Made by a program: the position numbers and the translations under genes. The notes below the pieces were generated by a model, which was not told the origin of the DNA, did not search any database, and saw nothing but the letters and a program-made list of their open reading frames with translations. Of a DNA stretch of 33,046 nucleotides, positions 652 to 33,046 are shown piece by piece. The DNA is from a virus. Within the stretch, counting starts at the first letter, position 1, and each line of letters opens with the position of its first letter. The DNA lies in IMG/VR virus record IMGVR_UViG_3300007722_000062, positions 1 to 33,046 of that record; one strand, given 5' to 3'.

Positions 652-860
652 ATTGGCGGTATAGGTAGTGTTTTATACATAAGTTAAACGAAAAATATAT
701 ATATAACCAAATAGGTTAATAGCTGTAATGGCCCGGTCACTCGCGCATTTGCCCGACTTGAAAACGCACTACCTAGATTGCCTAGAACGCCCAGAACTGC
801 CTAGCGCGTATTTATCGCCGGACTTGAAAACGCACTACCTAGATTGCCTATAACGCCAAT
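652..860. repeat. dispersed half-sites of the hairpin repeat family
   Basis: A lone left-type half-site (ATTGGCGGTATAGGTAGTG, 652-670) is followed by two right-type half-sites that share 30 identical bases at 755-784 and 821-850, both beginning GACTTGAAAACGCACTACCT, 66 bp apart. The 847-860 end matches the complement of the 652-665 half-site at 13 of 14 positions. These look like decayed or alternative members of the complete inverted repeats at 873-1028. TTGAAA at 824-829 with TATAAC at 849-854 (19-nt spacing) is a weak promoter possibility only. Confidence 0.65.
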
Positions 861-872
861 CCGCGCGCAAAC

Positions 873-941
873 ATTGGCGGTTTAGGTAGTGCGATGAAAA
901 GTCTAAAACGGACTTGTCAGCTCACTACCTAAACCGCCAAT
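873..941. repeat. long inverted repeat / hairpin unit 1
   Basis: Left arm 873-903 and right arm 911-941 are 31 nt each, with a 7-nt loop (TAAAACG). The outer 19 nt (ATTGGCGGTTTAGGTAGTG and its complement) pair perfectly. Three mismatches lie in the inner 12 nt. There is no T-run after the stem, so this is not a simple terminator. It is one member of an 87-bp tandem pair with the unit at 960-1028. Confidence 0.85.
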
Positions 942-959
942 CGGCTCCCGACCGCAAAC

Positions 960-1028
960 ATTGGCGTTCTAGGTAGTGCGATGAAAAGTCTGAAACGAAC
1001 TTGTCATCTTACTACCTAGAACGCCAAT
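960..1028. repeat. long inverted repeat / hairpin unit 2
   Basis: Outer arms 960-977 and 1011-1028 (ATTGGCGTTCTAGGTAGT and its complement) are perfectly complementary over 18 nt. Inner parts pair imperfectly through AAGT/ACTT. Relative to unit 1, the left arm carries GTTCTA in place of GGTTTA and the right arm carries the matching TAGAAC in place of TAAACC, so base-pairing is preserved by paired changes. Both units are followed by the same flank, beginning CGGCTCCCGA. Confidence 0.85.
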
Positions 1029-1161
1029 CGGCTCCCGATCGCGAAAGCCCCGCGCGGCTTACCCTAGCCGCGGCTTGCGTTTTCATTGCCCAGATTGCCA
1101 AGCCAGGGAAAAGCACCCGCGCCGGGCGCGCGCGGCCCGCGCCGGCTTTTTGCCGCTGCTT

Positions 1162-1180
1162 GGGGGGTGGGGGGTGGGGG
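1162..1180 (+). other. G-quadruplex-forming candidate
   Basis: Two runs of six G and one of five G, separated by single T residues. By the usual G3+N1-7 rule this can supply at least four G-triplets with very short loops. It lies in the gene-free control region. Confidence 0.55.
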
Positions 1181-1214
1181 CCGACGGCCGTGTGTCTGTG
1201 ACAGGCAGGGACCA

Positions 1215-1306
1215 CAAACAAAATTTATTTTTTGCAGAACCTAACGGCAAACAAAATTTATTTTTGCAAAACCTAGGGGCAAACAAAATTTATTTTTTTT
1301 ATTTTT
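1215..1306. repeat. AT-rich 33-bp direct repeats (3 copies)
   Basis: CAAACAAAATTTATTTTT begins at 1215, 1248 and 1280, giving periods of 33 and 32 bp. Between copies are GCAGAACCTAACGG and GCAAAACCTAGGGG, which are also related. In otherwise GC-rich DNA this is the most AT-rich stretch of the control region. Iteron-like repeats or a DNA-unwinding element are plausible, but the sequence alone does not show function. Confidence 0.75.
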
Positions 1307-4085: not shown

Positions 4086-7000
4086 ATGGCCGACGCAGCA
4101 GGCATGAACATGGTTGGCAAGGTCGCCAACATAGGGTCGAACCCCACGAAGTCGTCGGGCGACGACGATAGCAAGATGGCTACCATGCGCAGCCGCCTCC
4201 AGATGGCCATGGCCGCGTATTCGGACAGCCGCGAGGACGAACTGGACGATTTGCGGTTTATGGCCGGCAGTCCTGACAACCAGTGGCAGTGGCCCGCCGA
4301 TGTGCTGGCCACCCGCGGTAGCGTGCAGGGCCAGACGATCAACAGCCGCCCATGCCTGACAATCAACAAGCTGCCGCAGCACGTCCGCCAAGTGACAAAC
4401 GACCAGCGGCAGAATCGGCCCAGCGGTAAAGTCATCCCCGCCGACGACGCCGCCGACGTGCAGGTGGCGGAGATTTTTAACGGCATTGTGCGGCATATAG
4501 AGTATATGTCTGACGCCGACGTGGCATACGATACGGCTTGCGATAACCAGGTGACCTACGGCGAAGGCTACATTCGCTTGTTGACCGAGTATTGCAACGA
4601 CGAGACGTTTGACCAGGACATTCGCATCAAGCGCGTCCGCAACGCCTTTAGCGTTTACATGGACCCGACAATTCAAGACCCTACAGGGTCTGACGCCAAA
4701 TGGTGTTTTATCACCGAGGACATTCTTAAGACCGAATACGAGGAAATGTTTCCTGACGCCTCGCCGGTATCGACGTTGATGGCGCAAGGCGTTGGCAACG
4801 AAAGCATGGCTCAATGGCTGGCGGAAGACACAATCCGTATTGCCGAGTATTTCTATTGCGCCCATGAACCGGCTGTTCTGCATCTTTACCCCGACAACCA
4901 AACAGCGTTCTCGGGAACGAATCGCGACAAACAGTTGACCGCATCTTTTGGCCCGCCGGTTCGCAAGCGTAACGTAAGCCGTAATAAGGTCATGTGGATG
5001 AAAACCAATGGCTTTGACGTTTTAGAAGAACGGGAATGGCCGGGCAAATGGATTCCTGTAGTCCGCGTGATAGGCAACGAGTTTGAAGTCGAGGGACGCA
5101 TTTACATCAGCGGCCTTGTGCGTAACGCCAAGGACGCCCAGCGGATGTATAATTATTGGTGCCCCTTGGCCCTCGACACGCCAGTCCCGACGCCTTCAGG
5201 CTGGGCTGTCATGGGCGATCTAGTCCCCGGCGATACAGTATTCGACGAACACGGCAAGCCTTGCTTGGTTAAGGGTCTAAGCCCGGTGTTCATCAACCGT
5301 GACTGCTACCGCGTGGCGTTCGACGACGGGAGCACCATCGTTGCAGACGGCGAACACCTGTGGGCTGTAGAGGCGCGCGGCGCGCGCAAGGCTACCACTT
5401 GGGACTGGTCCGATAAGACTATCCCCACCCGCGAATTGGTTGCGGGAACGCACTTCATCAAGATGGCCGCGCCGCTCGACTGCCCACAAGTTGAATTACC
5501 CCTGGATCCCTATTTCCTCGGCGTATGGCTCGGAGATGGAGACACGATCAACCCGCAGATTACTCAGGGCGCGGTAGATATAGAACCTATGCGCGCGGTG
5601 CTAAAGGCCAAAGGACTGGATGTAGGCGCGGTGCGGAAGTCCAGCACCACGTTCCGCTTCACGGTGCACGGCGTGCGCGGGCGTATGGCCGAGATGGGCC
5701 TGCTAGGCCGCAAGCATATCCCCGCCGAATACCTGCGGGCGTCCCGCGAGCAGCGCCTCGAACTTCTGAGGGGCCTTATGGACACTGATGGGTCCATCAG
5801 CGCCAATGGGCAATGCTCGTTTACGACGGTGTTGGATAGCCTGCGAGGAGGCATGGAAGAACTTCTACGCTCGCTGGGGTTGAAGGCTATCGCGCTGGAA
5901 CGTGCGGGCTTGATGCAGAAATTTCCCTCCGGACAGACATACCAGTGCGCGGACTCGTGGCAGTTTTCTTTCTCGCTTCCGGCTGGCACCCAGCCGTTCT
6001 GCCTGCCGCGCAAGCAAGCTGGGGTCGGGAAGCGCAAGGCGCACCCGCGCCGCACTCAGCGGTTCACTATATCATCTATCGAGCGCGTGCCTTCGGTCCC
6101 TGTAAGGTGCATCGGCGTAGATACGCCGACGCATTTGTTCCTCGCGGGGGACGCGATGGTACCAACGCACAACAGCCAAGAGGCTGAAATGCTGGCGCTG
6201 GCACCCAAGGCACCCTTTATTGCTTACGGTGGCCAGTTTGAAGGCTATGAGAACCAATGGAAAACGGCCAACGTAAACAACTGGCCGTATCTGGAGGTCA
6301 ACCCGGACGTGACCGACGGCGCGGGCAACGTCTTGCCGCTGCCGCAACGCGCGCAGCCTCCGCTACCCCAGACCGCCTTGATTCAGGCCAAGATGGGCGC
6401 CGCAGACGACATTAAAGGCACAACAGGCCAATATGATGCCAGTCTGGGGATGCAGGGCAACGAACGTTCAGGTAAGGCCATTCTTGCCCGCGAGAAGCAG
6501 GGCGACGTGGGCACCTACCATTACGTTGACAACCTTGCCCGCGCTATCCGCCAGCTTACGCGGCAGATTGTCGACATAATCCCCAAGATTTACGACACGC
6601 AACGTGTCGCGCGCATCATCGGTATTGATAATGAAGTCAGCATGGTCAAGTTTAACCCGGCGCAGCCCGAACCGGTTAAAGAAGTCCGCGACCAGGACGG
6701 CGCGATGGTAGAGAAAATCTACAACCCCACTGTCGGCACTTACGATGTGATGGTTACGACTGGCCCGGGCTACATGACCAAGCGTCAGGAAGCCCTAGAT
6801 GCCATGAGCCAGATTCTACAGACCAACCCGCAGCTTTGGTCTGTGGCAGGCGATCTGTTCATCAAGAACATGGACTGGCCCGGCGCGCAAGAAATAGCGG
6901 CACGGTTCAAGAAGATTCTCGACCCGAAAGTTCTGTCGGAAGGCGACCAGTCGCCTGAGATGATGCAAGCGCATCAGCAGATAGAAGCCATGACGCAAGA

Positions 7001-7367
7001 GCTAAACCGTATGTCGGACATTATGAGCCATGTGCAGGACAGCGTTGCCCAACGCGAAGTGGACATCAAGGAATACAAGGCTCAAGTGGACGCCTACGAT
7101 GCCGAAACCAAGCGCATAAGCGCCATGCAAAACAGTATGTCGCCCGAACAAGTCCAAGATATCGTTATGGGCACCATTCACGCAGCTATTGAAACTGGCG
7201 ATCTTTCCGGGGGTATGCCCCGGATGCCGGAAGCAAAAGAGCCGCGTGAGATGCCCTACGCGGGTGAAGGGCAGGAACCACAGGGTGGTATGGCCCCCGA
7301 AGCCCCCCAGATGGCTCCAGAAGCCCCCCAGATGGCTCCAGAAGCCCCCGAAGGAATGATGGCATGA
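4086..7367 (+). CDS. P22-like portal protein interrupted by an intein
   Basis: The 1093-residue precursor would form the 12-subunit portal ring at one capsid vertex. Residues 1-358 and 697-1093 form the portal, about 755 residues after splicing (P22 portal is 725). Portal features are the N-terminal LTINKLPQHVRQVTNDQRQN, FSVYMDPTIQDPTGSDAKWC, AKDAQRMYNYW just before the insertion and MLALAPKAPFIAYGGQFEGY just after it, then GTTGQYDASLGMQGNERSGK. The C-terminus is helical, then a Pro/Met-rich tail with 7-residue EAPQMAP repeats (21-bp direct repeat at 7299-7340). Residues 359-696 are an intein, listed separately. The gene ends in an ATGA overlap with the next. Confidence 0.92.
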   Translation: MADAAGMNMVGKVANIGSNPTKSSGDDDSKMATMRSRLQMAMAAYSDSREDELDDLRFMAGSPDNQWQWPADVLATRGSVQGQTINSRPCLTINKLPQHVRQVTNDQRQNRPSGKVIPADDAADVQVAEIFNGIVRHIEYMSDADVAYDTACDNQVTYGEGYIRLLTEYCNDETFDQDIRIKRVRNAFSVYMDPTIQDPTGSDAKWCFITEDILKTEYEEMFPDASPVSTLMAQGVGNESMAQWLAEDTIRIAEYFYCAHEPAVLHLYPDNQTAFSGTNRDKQLTASFGPPVRKRNVSRNKVMWMKTNGFDVLEEREWPGKWIPVVRVIGNEFEVEGRIYISGLVRNAKDAQRMYNYWCPLALDTPVPTPSGWAVMGDLVPGDTVFDEHGKPCLVKGLSPVFINRDCYRVAFDDGSTIVADGEHLWAVEARGARKATTWDWSDKTIPTRELVAGTHFIKMAAPLDCPQVELPLDPYFLGVWLGDGDTINPQITQGAVDIEPMRAVLKAKGLDVGAVRKSSTTFRFTVHGVRGRMAEMGLLGRKHIPAEYLRASREQRLELLRGLMDTDGSISANGQCSFTTVLDSLRGGMEELLRSLGLKAIALERAGLMQKFPSGQTYQCADSWQFSFSLPAGTQPFCLPRKQAGVGKRKAHPRRTQRFTISSIERVPSVPVRCIGVDTPTHLFLAGDAMVPTHNSQEAEMLALAPKAPFIAYGGQFEGYENQWKTANVNNWPYLEVNPDVTDGAGNVLPLPQRAQPPLPQTALIQAKMGAADDIKGTTGQYDASLGMQGNERSGKAILAREKQGDVGTYHYVDNLARAIRQLTRQIVDIIPKIYDTQRVARIIGIDNEVSMVKFNPAQPEPVKEVRDQDGAMVEKIYNPTVGTYDVMVTTGPGYMTKRQEALDAMSQILQTNPQLWSVAGDLFIKNMDWPGAQEIAARFKKILDPKVLSEGDQSPEMMQAHQQIEAMTQELNRMSDIMSHVQDSVAQREVDIKEYKAQVDAYDAETKRISAMQNSMSPEQVQDIVMGTIHAAIETGDLSGGMPRMPEAKEPREMPYAGEGQEPQGGMAPEAPQMAPEAPQMAPEAPEGMMA
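5160..6173 (+). other. intein with LAGLIDADG homing endonuclease inside the portal
   Basis: A 338-residue intein, portal residues 359-696. It starts at Cys359 (CPLALDTPVPTPSGWAVMGD). A block-B-like segment, DDGSTIVADGEHLW, contains His424. Two LAGLIDADG-like helices follow: FLGVWLGDGD with Asp484 and LLRGLMDTDG with Asp568. The C-terminal splice block is RCIGVDTPTHLFLAGDAMVP ending His695-Asn696, with Ser697 as the +1 residue. All splicing residues and both nuclease acids are present, so it looks active in splicing and homing. Unusual: Pro directly follows Cys359, giving one residue more than the commoner CLALDTP start. Confidence 0.9.
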
Positions 7368-29074: not shown

Positions 29075-29085
29075 GGGGAAAACTA

Positions 29086-31425
29086 ATGAACGACGAGAGC
29101 CACGAGTTTATCGATTACGTTACCGGTTTGGCGTTTGAGCAAGGCGAGACAGCGCTGCTGCTGCACCAAAAACCTAAGCGCGAGAACGGCGATATTGTTT
29201 TTCACGGCGACGGAGTGCCAAAGGCGACGTTCCCCGCGTATCTCCCAGACAAGGCGCGCATCAAGCCGAGTGAGGCTTGGTACGTCAACACTGGGTCGTT
29301 TATCGTAGACCGGTTTATAGACGGCAAACCCGCCGCGAAACGTGAGAACGTCGAGTATGTTTTGTTTATGATGCTTGACGACATCGGCACAAAGTCAAAA
29401 ACGCCGCCGTTAGACCCGACATGGATTATGGAGACCAGCGCTGGATCGTTTCAGTGGGGCTACGCTTTCGTTGAGCAACCAACTAAGGGCAACTTTAGCG
29501 CGGCCATTAAGGCTATCGCGGCGGCGGGTTACACTGACCCAGGCGCGACTAACCCCGTTCGCAACTGCCGCATCCCCGGCAGCGTCAACCTGAAGCAGGG
29601 CCGCGGCAACTTCGCGGCGCGTCTGGTCGAGTTTCACCCCAAGCGTGAGTATACGCTAAATGCTATCTGCGAGGCGCTAGGCGTCGAGCCAGACGAAGCC
29701 GACACGGCGACCTATTCGTCCATACGCATCCGAGACACCGGCCAAGACAACGTGCTGGCGTGGTTGTCGGAGCAGGCGCTGGTGCTCAGTCACGTTAACC
29801 ACGAAGGGTGGTGCGGCGTTGTCTGCCCGAACAGCGCGCGGCACACGGACGGCAACGTCGAGGGCCGTTACAAGCCTCTGGACCGCTCCTATTGCTGCTA
29901 CCACGGCCACTGCCAAGAGATCAGCAGCAAGACGTTTCTGGATTGGGTTGCGGACAACGGTGGACCACGGGTAACGCCGGGGCTGCGCGACGAACTGATG
30001 GCCGAAGTCATGCAGCGTATGGCGTCCAAGATCACGCCAACAGCGGATTTCCCGGATGAAGCCGCGGCGCGTGTTCGCGAGGTCGAGCGCAAAGAGGCGG
30101 GCAGGGCCGAAAAATCAGAATGGTTTGATCGGTTCGCTTACGTCCAATCGGATGATAGCTATTTTGATATGGTGACGCGCCGGGAGGTGCCGCGCAACGT
30201 GTTTAACGCGCTGTTTCGGCACATCGACTGCCGGTCGATCCACAACAATAAAAACCGCGTTGCCGCCAGCGTCTATTTTGACGAGCGGCGGCAAGAGTAT
30301 GGCGCAGCGGCGCTGGTCGGCGTGACCTATGCAGCCGGCGAGGGTGTTTTTGTATCCCGGGACGGCCTGGCCTACGGCAACCGCTGGGTTAACGCGCGGC
30401 CAGACATGGCTGAAAGCGACGCGATGACTGATATGGACGTGTCGCAATGGCTCGAACATGGTAACAATTTGGTGCCAGATCAAACCGAATTGAACCATAT
30501 TTTGAATGTCATGGCGTTCAAGATTCAGAACCCGAATGTTAAAATCAATCACGCGGTCCTGCATGGCGGCGATGAAGGCAGCGGAAAAGATACGTTTTGG
30601 GCGCCGTTTTTATGGGCTGTTGGCGGGATTCACCAGCACAATAGGTCGGTGATTGAGGCTGGTGGGCTAGATAGTCAATGGGGCTACGCTTTGGAAGCCG
30701 AGGTGGTTATTCTAAACGAACTAAGAGAAAGTGACGCGCGCGAACGGCGGGCGTTATCAAATAAGCTGAAGCCCATAATCGCTGCGCCGCCAGAAACACT
30801 GTTGATCAACCGCAAGGGGCTGCACCCATATGAGATGCTGAACCGGCTGCAGGTCATAGCATTTACCAATGACCCGTTGCCTATCACGATACCATCGCAG
30901 GATCGGCGGTGGTTTTGCGTCTGGTCACGCGCACCGCGCATGGATGAAGACGCCGCGACGGCGCTATGGCGTTGGTATAAGCACGGCGGATATGAAAAGA
31001 TCGCCGCTTGGCTCTGGCAGCGCGATGTGGCGCGGTTTAACCCGGCGGTGGCCCCGCCCGTGACTGAGTGGAAGATGAACATGGTCGAGCATGGCCTATC
31101 GGTTGCGGAATCGTTCTTGGTCGAGTTGATGAAGAAGCGTGTGGGGCCGTTTGCGCCTGGCGTCGTTGGCGGGCCGTTTCATAAGCTGTGCGATACTATC
31201 GCATCGGGTCACGTCCCTCCAGGCACGAAGGTGCCGCAGGCGGCGCTGCTGCACGCGCTGAAAGAGGCTGGTTGGGTCGATGTGGGGCGGCTGGGGTCGG
31301 TAGACTACCAGACCAAGAAACATGTTTTCGCCGCGCCGGAGATGGCCGGTATGGCTAAGTCCGAGTTGCGCCGAATTGTCGAAGGGGTTGCATCGGCAGA
31401 TGGAAAGGTTATAAATATGCGTTAG
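29086..31425 (+). CDS. primase-helicase (AEP-like primase plus DUF5906-type ATPase)
   Basis: 779 residues from ATG 29086 with AAGGGG upstream. An N-terminal primase-like region has VLFMMLDDIGTK (Asp98, Asp99), GSFQWGYAF and CRIPGSVNLK, a pattern of archaeo-eukaryotic primase/RepB-type folds. A Cys/His cluster follows (GWCGVVCPNSARH, then SYCCYHGHC, 241-276), which is zinc-binding-like. The superfamily 3/DUF5906-type helicase has Walker A GGDEGSGKDT (494-503), Walker B VVILNE (540-545) and IAFTNDPLPI as sensor. It would unwind and prime at the fork. A strong terminator follows. Confidence 0.87.
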   Translation: MNDESHEFIDYVTGLAFEQGETALLLHQKPKRENGDIVFHGDGVPKATFPAYLPDKARIKPSEAWYVNTGSFIVDRFIDGKPAAKRENVEYVLFMMLDDIGTKSKTPPLDPTWIMETSAGSFQWGYAFVEQPTKGNFSAAIKAIAAAGYTDPGATNPVRNCRIPGSVNLKQGRGNFAARLVEFHPKREYTLNAICEALGVEPDEADTATYSSIRIRDTGQDNVLAWLSEQALVLSHVNHEGWCGVVCPNSARHTDGNVEGRYKPLDRSYCCYHGHCQEISSKTFLDWVADNGGPRVTPGLRDELMAEVMQRMASKITPTADFPDEAAARVREVERKEAGRAEKSEWFDRFAYVQSDDSYFDMVTRREVPRNVFNALFRHIDCRSIHNNKNRVAASVYFDERRQEYGAAALVGVTYAAGEGVFVSRDGLAYGNRWVNARPDMAESDAMTDMDVSQWLEHGNNLVPDQTELNHILNVMAFKIQNPNVKINHAVLHGGDEGSGKDTFWAPFLWAVGGIHQHNRSVIEAGGLDSQWGYALEAEVVILNELRESDARERRALSNKLKPIIAAPPETLLINRKGLHPYEMLNRLQVIAFTNDPLPITIPSQDRRWFCVWSRAPRMDEDAATALWRWYKHGGYEKIAAWLWQRDVARFNPAVAPPVTEWKMNMVEHGLSVAESFLVELMKKRVGPFAPGVVGGPFHKLCDTIASGHVPPGTKVPQAALLHALKEAGWVDVGRLGSVDYQTKKHVFAAPEMAGMAKSELRRIVEGVASADGKVINMR

Positions 31426-31764: not shown

Positions 31765-32055
31765 TTAACCGCGCGCCGCGGATAAATCGTCAAGTAGGTC
31801 GCTGATCTCGACGGCTTGCGCCGCGTTATCAAGATGAACCAACTCAATTTCATTTTCCAAATCTTCTATCGTGCATCCGCGTTTCTCATGGTCCAATTCC
31901 AACTGGGTGACGTATAGATCGACTCTTGCTAGTTCGGCGGCGATGTCCTCCAGGCGTTCGCCTAAAGCTAACGCTAGTTCATCGCGGCTATCGCGAGCGG
32001 CGATAATCAAAGCAGCGTTGGGTGACGCGCGCCAATAGTTTCTGTCGTGTGTCAT
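31765..32055 (-). CDS. coiled-coil hypothetical protein, 96 aa
   Basis: ATG 32055 with AAAGGGG about 9 nt upstream. Begins MTHDRNYWRASPNAALIIAA, then strongly heptad-like acidic helix: ELALALGERLEDIAAELARV, DLYVTQLELDHEKRG, IEDLENEIELVHLDN. A dimeric coiled coil is likely. No known family recognised. Confidence 0.72.
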   Translation of the reverse strand: MTHDRNYWRASPNAALIIAARDSRDELALALGERLEDIAAELARVDLYVTQLELDHEKRGCTIEDLENEIELVHLDNAAQAVEISDLLDDLSAARG

Positions 32056-32076
32056 GGTAGGGTTCCCCTTTCTAAA

Positions 32077-32331
32077 TTACAGCGTGGCGGCGGCGGCGCG
32101 GGCGGCGGCGTCGTAGGCCTTGTCCGCATCAGCCTTAGCGGCGGCGTAGGCCTTGTCCGCATCATCCATTGCGGCGTCGTAGGCCTCGCGCGGCTCAGCC
32201 ATTGCGGCGTCGTAGGCCTTGTCCGCATCATCCATTGCGGCGCCGTAGGCCTTGTCCGCATCATCCATTGCGGCGGCGCAGGCCACTGCGCCGTGCGAGG
32301 GGTCAATAGCAATCGGTGTTCTAGCGTTCAT
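32077..32331 (-). CDS. 11-residue-repeat helical protein, 84 aa
   Basis: ATG 32331 with AAAGGA upstream. A short leader (MNARTPIAIDPSHGAVACAA) is followed by five 11-residue units such as MDDADKAYGAA, MAEPREAYDAA and KADADKAYDAA, then an Ala-rich end. The units match those of the protein at 1-491 in both amino acids and DNA (33-bp period), so the two genes are paralogues of different repeat number. More acidic (DDADK) than the other copy. Function unknown. Confidence 0.75.
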   Translation of the reverse strand: MNARTPIAIDPSHGAVACAAAMDDADKAYGAAMDDADKAYDAAMAEPREAYDAAMDDADKAYAAAKADADKAYDAAARAAAATL

Positions 32332-32435
32332 TTTACATCCTTTGGGTTTGCTTTTGATACGGCGCGCCAGGCCATGCGGGCGATAAGCGCGTAGAGGGCA
32401 ATGGTAGCGGTGGTGACGGTTACAGCGTAGAGCAT
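32328..32435 (-). CDS. small single-TM membrane protein, 35 aa
   Basis: ATG 32435 with AGAGGA 9 nt upstream. MLYAVTVTTATIALYALIAR is one TM helix, followed by a basic tail (MAWRAVSKANPKDVK). Its TGA overlaps the ATG of the repeat-protein gene (ATGA), the typical coupling in this genome. Supported by start signal and overlap; no family known. Confidence 0.6.
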   Translation of the reverse strand: MLYAVTVTTATIALYALIARMAWRAVSKANPKDVK

Positions 32436-32494
32436 GACGGGATATCCTCTCGTATAGCCGGTCTCATCAGTGGCGGGCGGCTAACCCCTGCCAG

Positions 32495-32521
32495 ACAGGC
32501 GCGTGTGTACATCGCGCCTGT
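32495..32521. promoter_or_regulatory. 9-bp inverted repeat in the gap between small leftward genes
   Basis: ACAGGCGCG (32495-32503) and CGCGCCTGT (32513-32521) with a 9-nt spacer, in the 165-nt gap (32436-32600) where no gene was seen. There is no useful T-run on the minus strand, so it is a weak terminator at best. It could be an operator or RNA-processing hairpin. Confidence 0.45.
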
Positions 32522-32600
32522 TTCGACGTTACGGTTGGGTCTCTAACATCCGTTGCCGTGCGGCGCGTGGTGGTGTGTTAATGACGCGTCGTTCGTTTCC

Positions 32601-33038
32601 TTACGTTGCGAGTACGGCATCAGGATCGGCAAAGCCAAACAGTGGCAGAAAGTAAAACGGTTGGCCTTTCTTTCGCATAATTGCAGCGCCTTGGATTTCG
32701 TTCGTGGCCCATGCAGCGCCTTGGATTTCGTTCGTGGCCCATGCGGCGTCCCCTGCGGCGTTCCATGCGGCGTTCCATGCGGCGTCCCCTGCGGCGTTCC
32801 ATGCGGCGTCCCGTGCGGCGTTCCATGCGGCGTCCCGTGCGACATCGGTCATCGTGTCAAGATGACGCCAGAACGCCAGCACGGTTTGCGCTCGATCGCC
32901 AAGTACTAGCTCTGGGTGCGTAATAACGATTGATGGCGCGCCGGGTCTGCTGTCATTAATCCTGCGCATCAGCACAGAATGTGCGCGGCTGATGCCCCAT
33001 ATGCGCGCGTTTTCAGCGTCGGCTTTTAATTGGTTCAT
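32601..33038 (-). CDS. Ala/Trp-repeat phage protein, 145 aa
   Basis: ATG 33038, 8 nt from the window edge, so a longer N-terminus cannot be excluded and the ribosome-binding site is not visible. The N-terminus (MNQLKADAENARIWGISRAH) is followed by 4- and 8-residue repeats of the DAAWNAARDAAWNAAGDAAW type and two copies of AAWATNEIQG, then IMRKKGQPFYFLPLFGFADP. Proteins with AAWDAAW repeats and this FYFLPLFGF-type ending are common among phage accessory genes. Their function is unknown to me. Confidence 0.72.
   Translation of the reverse strand: MNQLKADAENARIWGISRAHSVLMRRINDSRPGAPSIVITHPELVLGDRAQTVLAFWRHLDTMTDVARDAAWNAARDAAWNAAGDAAWNAAWNAAGDAAWATNEIQGAAWATNEIQGAAIMRKKGQPFYFLPLFGFADPDAVLAT
32683..32742. 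repeat. perfect 30-bp tandem duplication inside the Ala/Trp-repeat gene
   Basis: Two identical 30-bp units (32683-32712, 32713-32742), each starting GCAGCGCCTTGGATTTCG, add ten residues (AAWATNEIQG) in frame. Perfect identity suggests a recent duplication. Confidence 0.9.
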
Positions 33039-33046
33039 TTCGCGCA

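Follow-up and report, generated by a model that had tools for sequence, protein, structure and literature searches.

A putative iteron origin in an uncultivated podovirus, with sites that vary in step with residues of a primase-helicase

Closest described systems

The alpha protein of satellite phage P4 is described as binding the repeats of its origin via a winged helix, and as unwinding and priming there (PMC4234260; Ziegelin et al. 1993 and Yeo et al. 2002, as cited there and in PMC9611036). The phage considered here resembles that system, as those accounts present it, in that one protein combines a primase, an SF3 helicase and a C-terminal winged helix (here predicted), and in that repeats are found at the putative origin. 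The two differ in that P4 alpha possesses a Toprim primase, whereas the protein described here displays a weak RepB-type primase match instead; furthermore, the iterons differ, and in the present phages the apparent specificity switches between close relatives. As judged from its sequence, the element is of a kind already known, a P4-alpha-like iteron origin, in which fast-switching specificity would be the new feature; full membership in the P4-alpha group is not claimed.

SF3 helicases that carry a winged helix have also been proposed to assemble at a stem-loop (PMC4234260). The present phage resembles pRN1 (with its ORF904 protein) and phage BIP-1, described in the same study, in its combination of SF3 helicase and winged helix and in a large stem-loop downstream of the replication gene's 3' end; unlike in those elements, the conserved element here consists of iterons, and the stem-loop is found in two phages only, approximately 4 kb from the gene. 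A conserved stem-loop, by which the pRN1 and BIP-1 elements are recognized, was not found, since the one seen here is not kept among relatives.

Under attack by a nuclease that cuts the origin, ICP1 and its satellite show diversification of their origin iterons and of the domain that binds them (PMC8263062). The iterons of PLE RepA and the ICP1 protein Odn (PMC8263062) share with the present case the diversification of origin iterons and origin-binding domain, accompanied by exchange of modules; PLE RepA is the initiator of a satellite, whereas the initiator proposed here is the phage's own primase-helicase. The literature searched, outside which most subscription journals lay, yielded no account of this origin group.

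The hairpin units and their repeated sites

The window (the whole stretch of DNA that was analysed, 33,046 bases in length) is an IMG/VR virus record corresponding to a podovirus-like genome, in which profile searches identified a P22-type portal, a family-A DNA polymerase and a primase-helicase. A second contig, L085, bridges both ends of the window via 1,784 extra bases, indicating that the genome is circular or permuted and approximately 34.8 kb in length. The hairpin element has a leftward operon on one side and the rightward terminase genes on the other, and a blastn search of positions 600-1050 against annotated phages returned no match.

A sequence-only reading had described two tandem 87-bp hairpin units with outer perfect arms of 19 and 18 nt and two differences between their arms, each matched in the opposite arm, and all of these features were borne out (Table 1), the two differences being G/T and T/C. 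The units are 89% identical and both are followed by CGGCTCCCGA; the inverted repeats match at 28/31 and 27/31 positions in hairpins 1 and 2, and the inner halves of the arms display differences at uncompensated positions. The predicted RNA and DNA folds lie far below those of shuffled sequences (z -12.2 and -11.8, with none of 200 shuffles as good). The exact number of 87-bp units is provisional, since L085 ends within hairpin 1 and L005 ends at window position 1472.

Table 1. Features of the window, with the basis on which each was assigned
Feature	Coordinates	Strand	Basis
Likely leftward-operon promoter: TTGACA, 17 bp, CATAAA	527..555	-	direct reading
Left initiator site (putative), inverted, CACTACCTATACCGCCAAT	652..670	-	mirror-image site at this place in relatives, e.g. 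L212 GACTTAACATTCCATTACCCAGATGACCCAG on -
AT-rich segment, candidate unwinding element	671..720		direct reading; AACC-AAATA-GGTT at 705-717
Right initiator site 1 (putative), GACTTGAAAACGCACTACCTAGATTGCCTAGAACGCC, 9-bp iterons	755..791	+	position and order match relatives' GACTTGAAAACGCATAGCCTAGATAGCCTAGATCGCC
Right site 1, repeated 66 bp further on, 95%	821..857	+	repeat search
Tandem unit 1, 87 bp	861..947	+	repeat search
Hairpin 1 left arm, inverted site	873..903	-	repeat search
Hairpin 1 right arm, direct site (GACTTGTCAGCTCACTACCTAAACCGCCAAT)	911..941	+	matches relatives' second right site GACTTGTTATCTCATAGCCTAGATCGCC
Tandem unit 2, 87 bp	948..1034	+	repeat search
Hairpin 2 left arm, inverted site	960..990	-	repeat search
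Hairpin 2 right arm, direct site	998..1028	+	repeat search
Block upstream of terminase genes, ~75-85% identical in many relatives	1162..1233	+	sequence comparison
Primase-helicase, 782 aa, DUF5906 SF3-type helicase, proposed initiator	29077..31425	+	profile search
C-terminal winged-helix-like domain, residues 664-774	31066..31398	+	AlphaFold2 model, mean pLDDT 73.6
Wing loop, candidate specificity residues 740 (G), 742 (V), 745 (Q)	31294..31311	+	mutual information + model

Each arm corresponds to one copy of a site, GACTT-N7-CA-CTACCTA-N4-GCC, with small changes between copies, and each hairpin joins two of these sites head to head, GACTT end towards GACTT end. Seven copies are found, at 652, 755, 821, 873, 911, 960 and 998 (four in + and three in - orientation), of which that at 652 matches the consensus in its CTACCTA half only; none lies outside 652-1028 in the whole window. 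A scan with TTGGCGNTNTAGGTAGTG, allowing up to three mismatches, yielded 8 matches where 0.2 were expected, all within 653-1027, and established that the related sites previously proposed at 652, 755 and 821 are real. Several copies of a site in one intergenic region and an AT-rich segment beside them, the features by which an iteron origin is recognized, are both present, as the seven copies and the segment at 671-720. The putative origin in the window contains no perfect DnaA box, a lack that is compatible with an iteron origin because such boxes are not required by all origins of that type. Cumulative GC skew, which had been suggested as a check, was uninformative and displayed no clear origin signal.

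Conservation of layout and variation of iterons among relatives

The large terminase subunit, used as a query, recovered 80 loci, many of which share, upstream of terS, the same order of an inverted site, an AT-rich stretch containing AACC-N-GGTT, and two right-hand sites that start with GACTTG. Dozens of relatives show this layout ahead of their terminase genes, most of them with AACC-N2-6-GGTT separating the left site from the right ones; TTATCCACA-type DnaA boxes are located to the left of the AT-rich stretch in roughly one-third of the relatives that have the region. The variable half of the relatives' sites consists of 9-bp iterons of other classes (AGCCTAGAT, GACCCAGAT, GACGTCCAT and AGCCTACAT, and later TGACAACT and CCCACA), the class being largely uniform inside a genome and different between genomes. 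The primase of MW202483 is 54% identical, with a wing that reads F-A-P by eye, and 9-bp repeats (TTGGTAGTG) are found near position 3185 of L385; this case falls outside the code described below and was left out of the class comparison. In DSL-LC05 the terminase is shared and the primase was absent among the matches listed. A scan with TAGGTAGT...ACTACCTA was left unused, since its 120 matches to a short palindromic pattern were expected to come mostly from unrelated contigs.

Co-variation of the iterons with the primase-helicase

The C-terminal part of the primase-helicase contains the sequence W-V-D-x-G-R-x-X740-S-X742, in which the two variable residues follow the iteron class. In a first set of proteins, 83-99% identical irrespective of class, G and T/S accompanied CCTAG, A/H and V/I accompanied CCCAG, N and K accompanied GACGTC, and G and K accompanied CCTAC. 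A later primase search, only partly independent in that some contigs overlap the first set, gave GST and GSS with CCTAG, HSV, ASV and ASI with CCCAG, and GSK with CCTAC, as the rule predicted. NSK was again found with GACGTC, and NSK having Q745 with TGACAACT; this split by residue 745 is a refinement made after the fact, and the classes GACAAC and CCCACA were likewise defined after being seen. Among the regions added afterwards, GSR (CCTACA), HSR (CCCACA) and GSA (CCTAAA, twice) also agreed with prediction, and ASG (CCCAAA) fits as well.

Across 39 dereplicated pairs, mutual information with class was 1.58 bits for residue 742, 1.56 for residue 740 and 1.08 for residue 745, the highest values among 408 variable columns, while 300 shuffles of the labels reached a maximum of 0.96; for TerL, used as a control, the top value was 0.56 and so did not reach the shuffle mean of 0.63. 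When a tree is built from the primase core with the wing left out, at least 16 changes of class are required, and phylogenetically independent pairs on its well-supported branches agree in 6/6, 6/6 and 4/4 cases with none against, although, with so few supported pairs, the sign tests give no better than p 0.03, 0.03 and 0.125.

The correspondence has exceptions. Two distant phages, L319 (ASV) and L305 (ASS), carry AGCCTAAAT (CCTAAA) and so break the rule that pairs A740 with CCCA, while L309 (ASS) has both forms and phages with ACV are mixed; the misfits in L319 and L305 indicate a code that holds strongly for the main clade but is incomplete for a distant one. V742 of the window pairs with CACTACC, yet L270 (also GSV) has CATAGCC, and the window's own variant is therefore not fully explained by the residue rule. 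In the cases open to comparison, C at iteron position 7 (G on the opposite strand) always accompanied K or R at residue 742. The wing and the origin, separated by approximately 4 kb, may be transferred jointly by recombination. The change of the sites in step with the primase-helicase supports both the replication origin and the protein-binding dyad that had been among the earlier suggestions, and points to the primase-helicase as the protein that would start replication.

Within that protein, the SF3-type helicase domain was recognized by a DUF5906 match above cut-off; for the primase part, the profile search gave no Toprim match and a weak RepB_primase match below cut-off. The model of the C-terminal domain contains helices at 79-89 and 99-109 followed by strands at 112-117 and 126-130, an order of elements that is predicted, at middling model confidence, to be that of a winged helix, and residues 740, 742 and 745 (model residues 118, 120 and 123) lie in the loop that joins the two wing strands. 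The best structural matches of the model include many winged helices at modest Z of 4-6, while neither Foldseek with the model nor a PDB sequence search with the C-terminal alignment returned a significant match.

A proposed initiation mechanism and its alternatives

The reading that best fits these observations, to which we assign a probability of roughly four in five, is that 652-1028 is the replication origin of the phage, bound and opened by the primase-helicase at the repeated sites, with the hairpins representing extra pairs of sites. The C-terminal winged-helix domain would bind those sites and its wing loop would read the variable 9-bp iteron; copies of the protein on sites oriented towards one another on either side of 671-720 would open the AT-rich segment, which would permit helicase loading and the priming of synthesis. 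The two hairpins would have arisen by an inverted and then a tandem (87-bp) duplication of the same site, and extrusion of a hairpin or cruciform would not be needed.

The alternative that survives best, although it is unlikely, is that the hairpins themselves are functional, as extruded or single-stranded stem-loops at which the primase-helicase assembles or primes. The folds in the window are very stable; a hairpin of different sequence, its arms 38 nt long, occupies the equivalent place in the distant relative L309; and pRN1 needs its stem-loop, a requirement which those authors extend to proteins combining SF3 helicase and winged helix (PMC4234260). Against this, L207, whose primase is 93% identical and which is the closest relative found, has retained the inverted pair but folds only weakly there (z -1.4), the ordinary relatives L040 and L065 have no hairpin at the equivalent place, and the scan that was used found such a hairpin in no relative other than L309. 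Pairing is therefore not generally conserved, and the earlier suggestion of selection on pairing gives way, relatives having been found in which the arms diverge and pairing is lost, while its reading as a binding site stands. The likeness of the arms would follow from both being putative initiator sites, which would be sufficient alone; copying from arm to arm by template switching during replication has probably contributed as well. Template switching explains matched changes in both arms of a hairpin by a single event, an effect described for RNA genes (PMC8794818), and the matched changes seen here can arise in that way or because a single protein uses both arms as its sites.

It is more doubtful still that the sites are operators for a repressor or activator at divergent promoters, with the origin located elsewhere. 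The region does lie between leftward and rightward operons, and a likely leftward promoter is present, whose hexamers have counterparts at the equivalent place in some relatives and which is absent from the list of a strict promoter scan. The co-varying protein is the primase-helicase, however, rather than a regulator, and none of the window genes tested belongs to an HTH regulator family. Initiators often repress their own region too, and a dual use of the sites in replication and in transcription control is possible. Promoter hairpins of the phage N4 type, which have much shorter stems, were considered and set aside.

A packaging (pac) or recombination site is very improbable, in that the element adjoins the terminase genes but its site class tracks the primase and not the large terminase subunit. 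A structured RNA, as had also been suggested, or a 5' leader on the terminase transcript can be nearly dismissed: the hairpins lie upstream of terS and contain two compensated changes, but they have no Rfam match, the L207 fold is no better than shuffles, most relatives lack a long hairpin while keeping terS, and the site occurs in both orientations, as fits double-stranded DNA.

A possible diversification of origins among uncultivated podoviruses

It can be proposed, tentatively and at somewhat below even odds, that a widespread group of uncultivated podoviruses repeatedly switches the specificity of origin and initiator via two or three wing residues, giving rise to many mutually incompatible replication types whose initiators are otherwise approximately 90% alike; such switching would be driven by conflict with satellites, origin-targeting nucleases or co-infecting phages, and would follow a simple readable code (for example, that linking K/R742 to iteron position 7). 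Dozens of putative initiators, each with its matched origin and set apart by few residues, form a natural series, which makes the change of a winged helix's DNA target and the diversification of phage origins directly testable, and by which origins of uncultivated phages become findable and typable from sequence. The hairpins also serve as a warning that compensated arms need not imply a selected RNA or cruciform.

Other features of the genome

Immediately before terS, CAAACAAAATTTATTTTTT occurs three times at 1215-1298, and in L261, L289 and L385 genes resembling HNH or homing endonucleases lie between the origin and terS. The portal gene (4086-7367) contains an in-frame, intein-like insert with a LAGLIDADG match, and relatives such as L211 are without approximately 1 kb at its place. 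An early leftward gene of the bridging contig (L085:1212-1943) displays a weak likeness to the beta clamp of DNA polymerase III (E 0.07). The genes at 1-491 and 32052-33046, which flank the point at which the contig is cut, are built of 33-bp and 12-bp tandem repeats that encode alanine-rich sequences (KAYAAAMAEPR and DAAWNAA).
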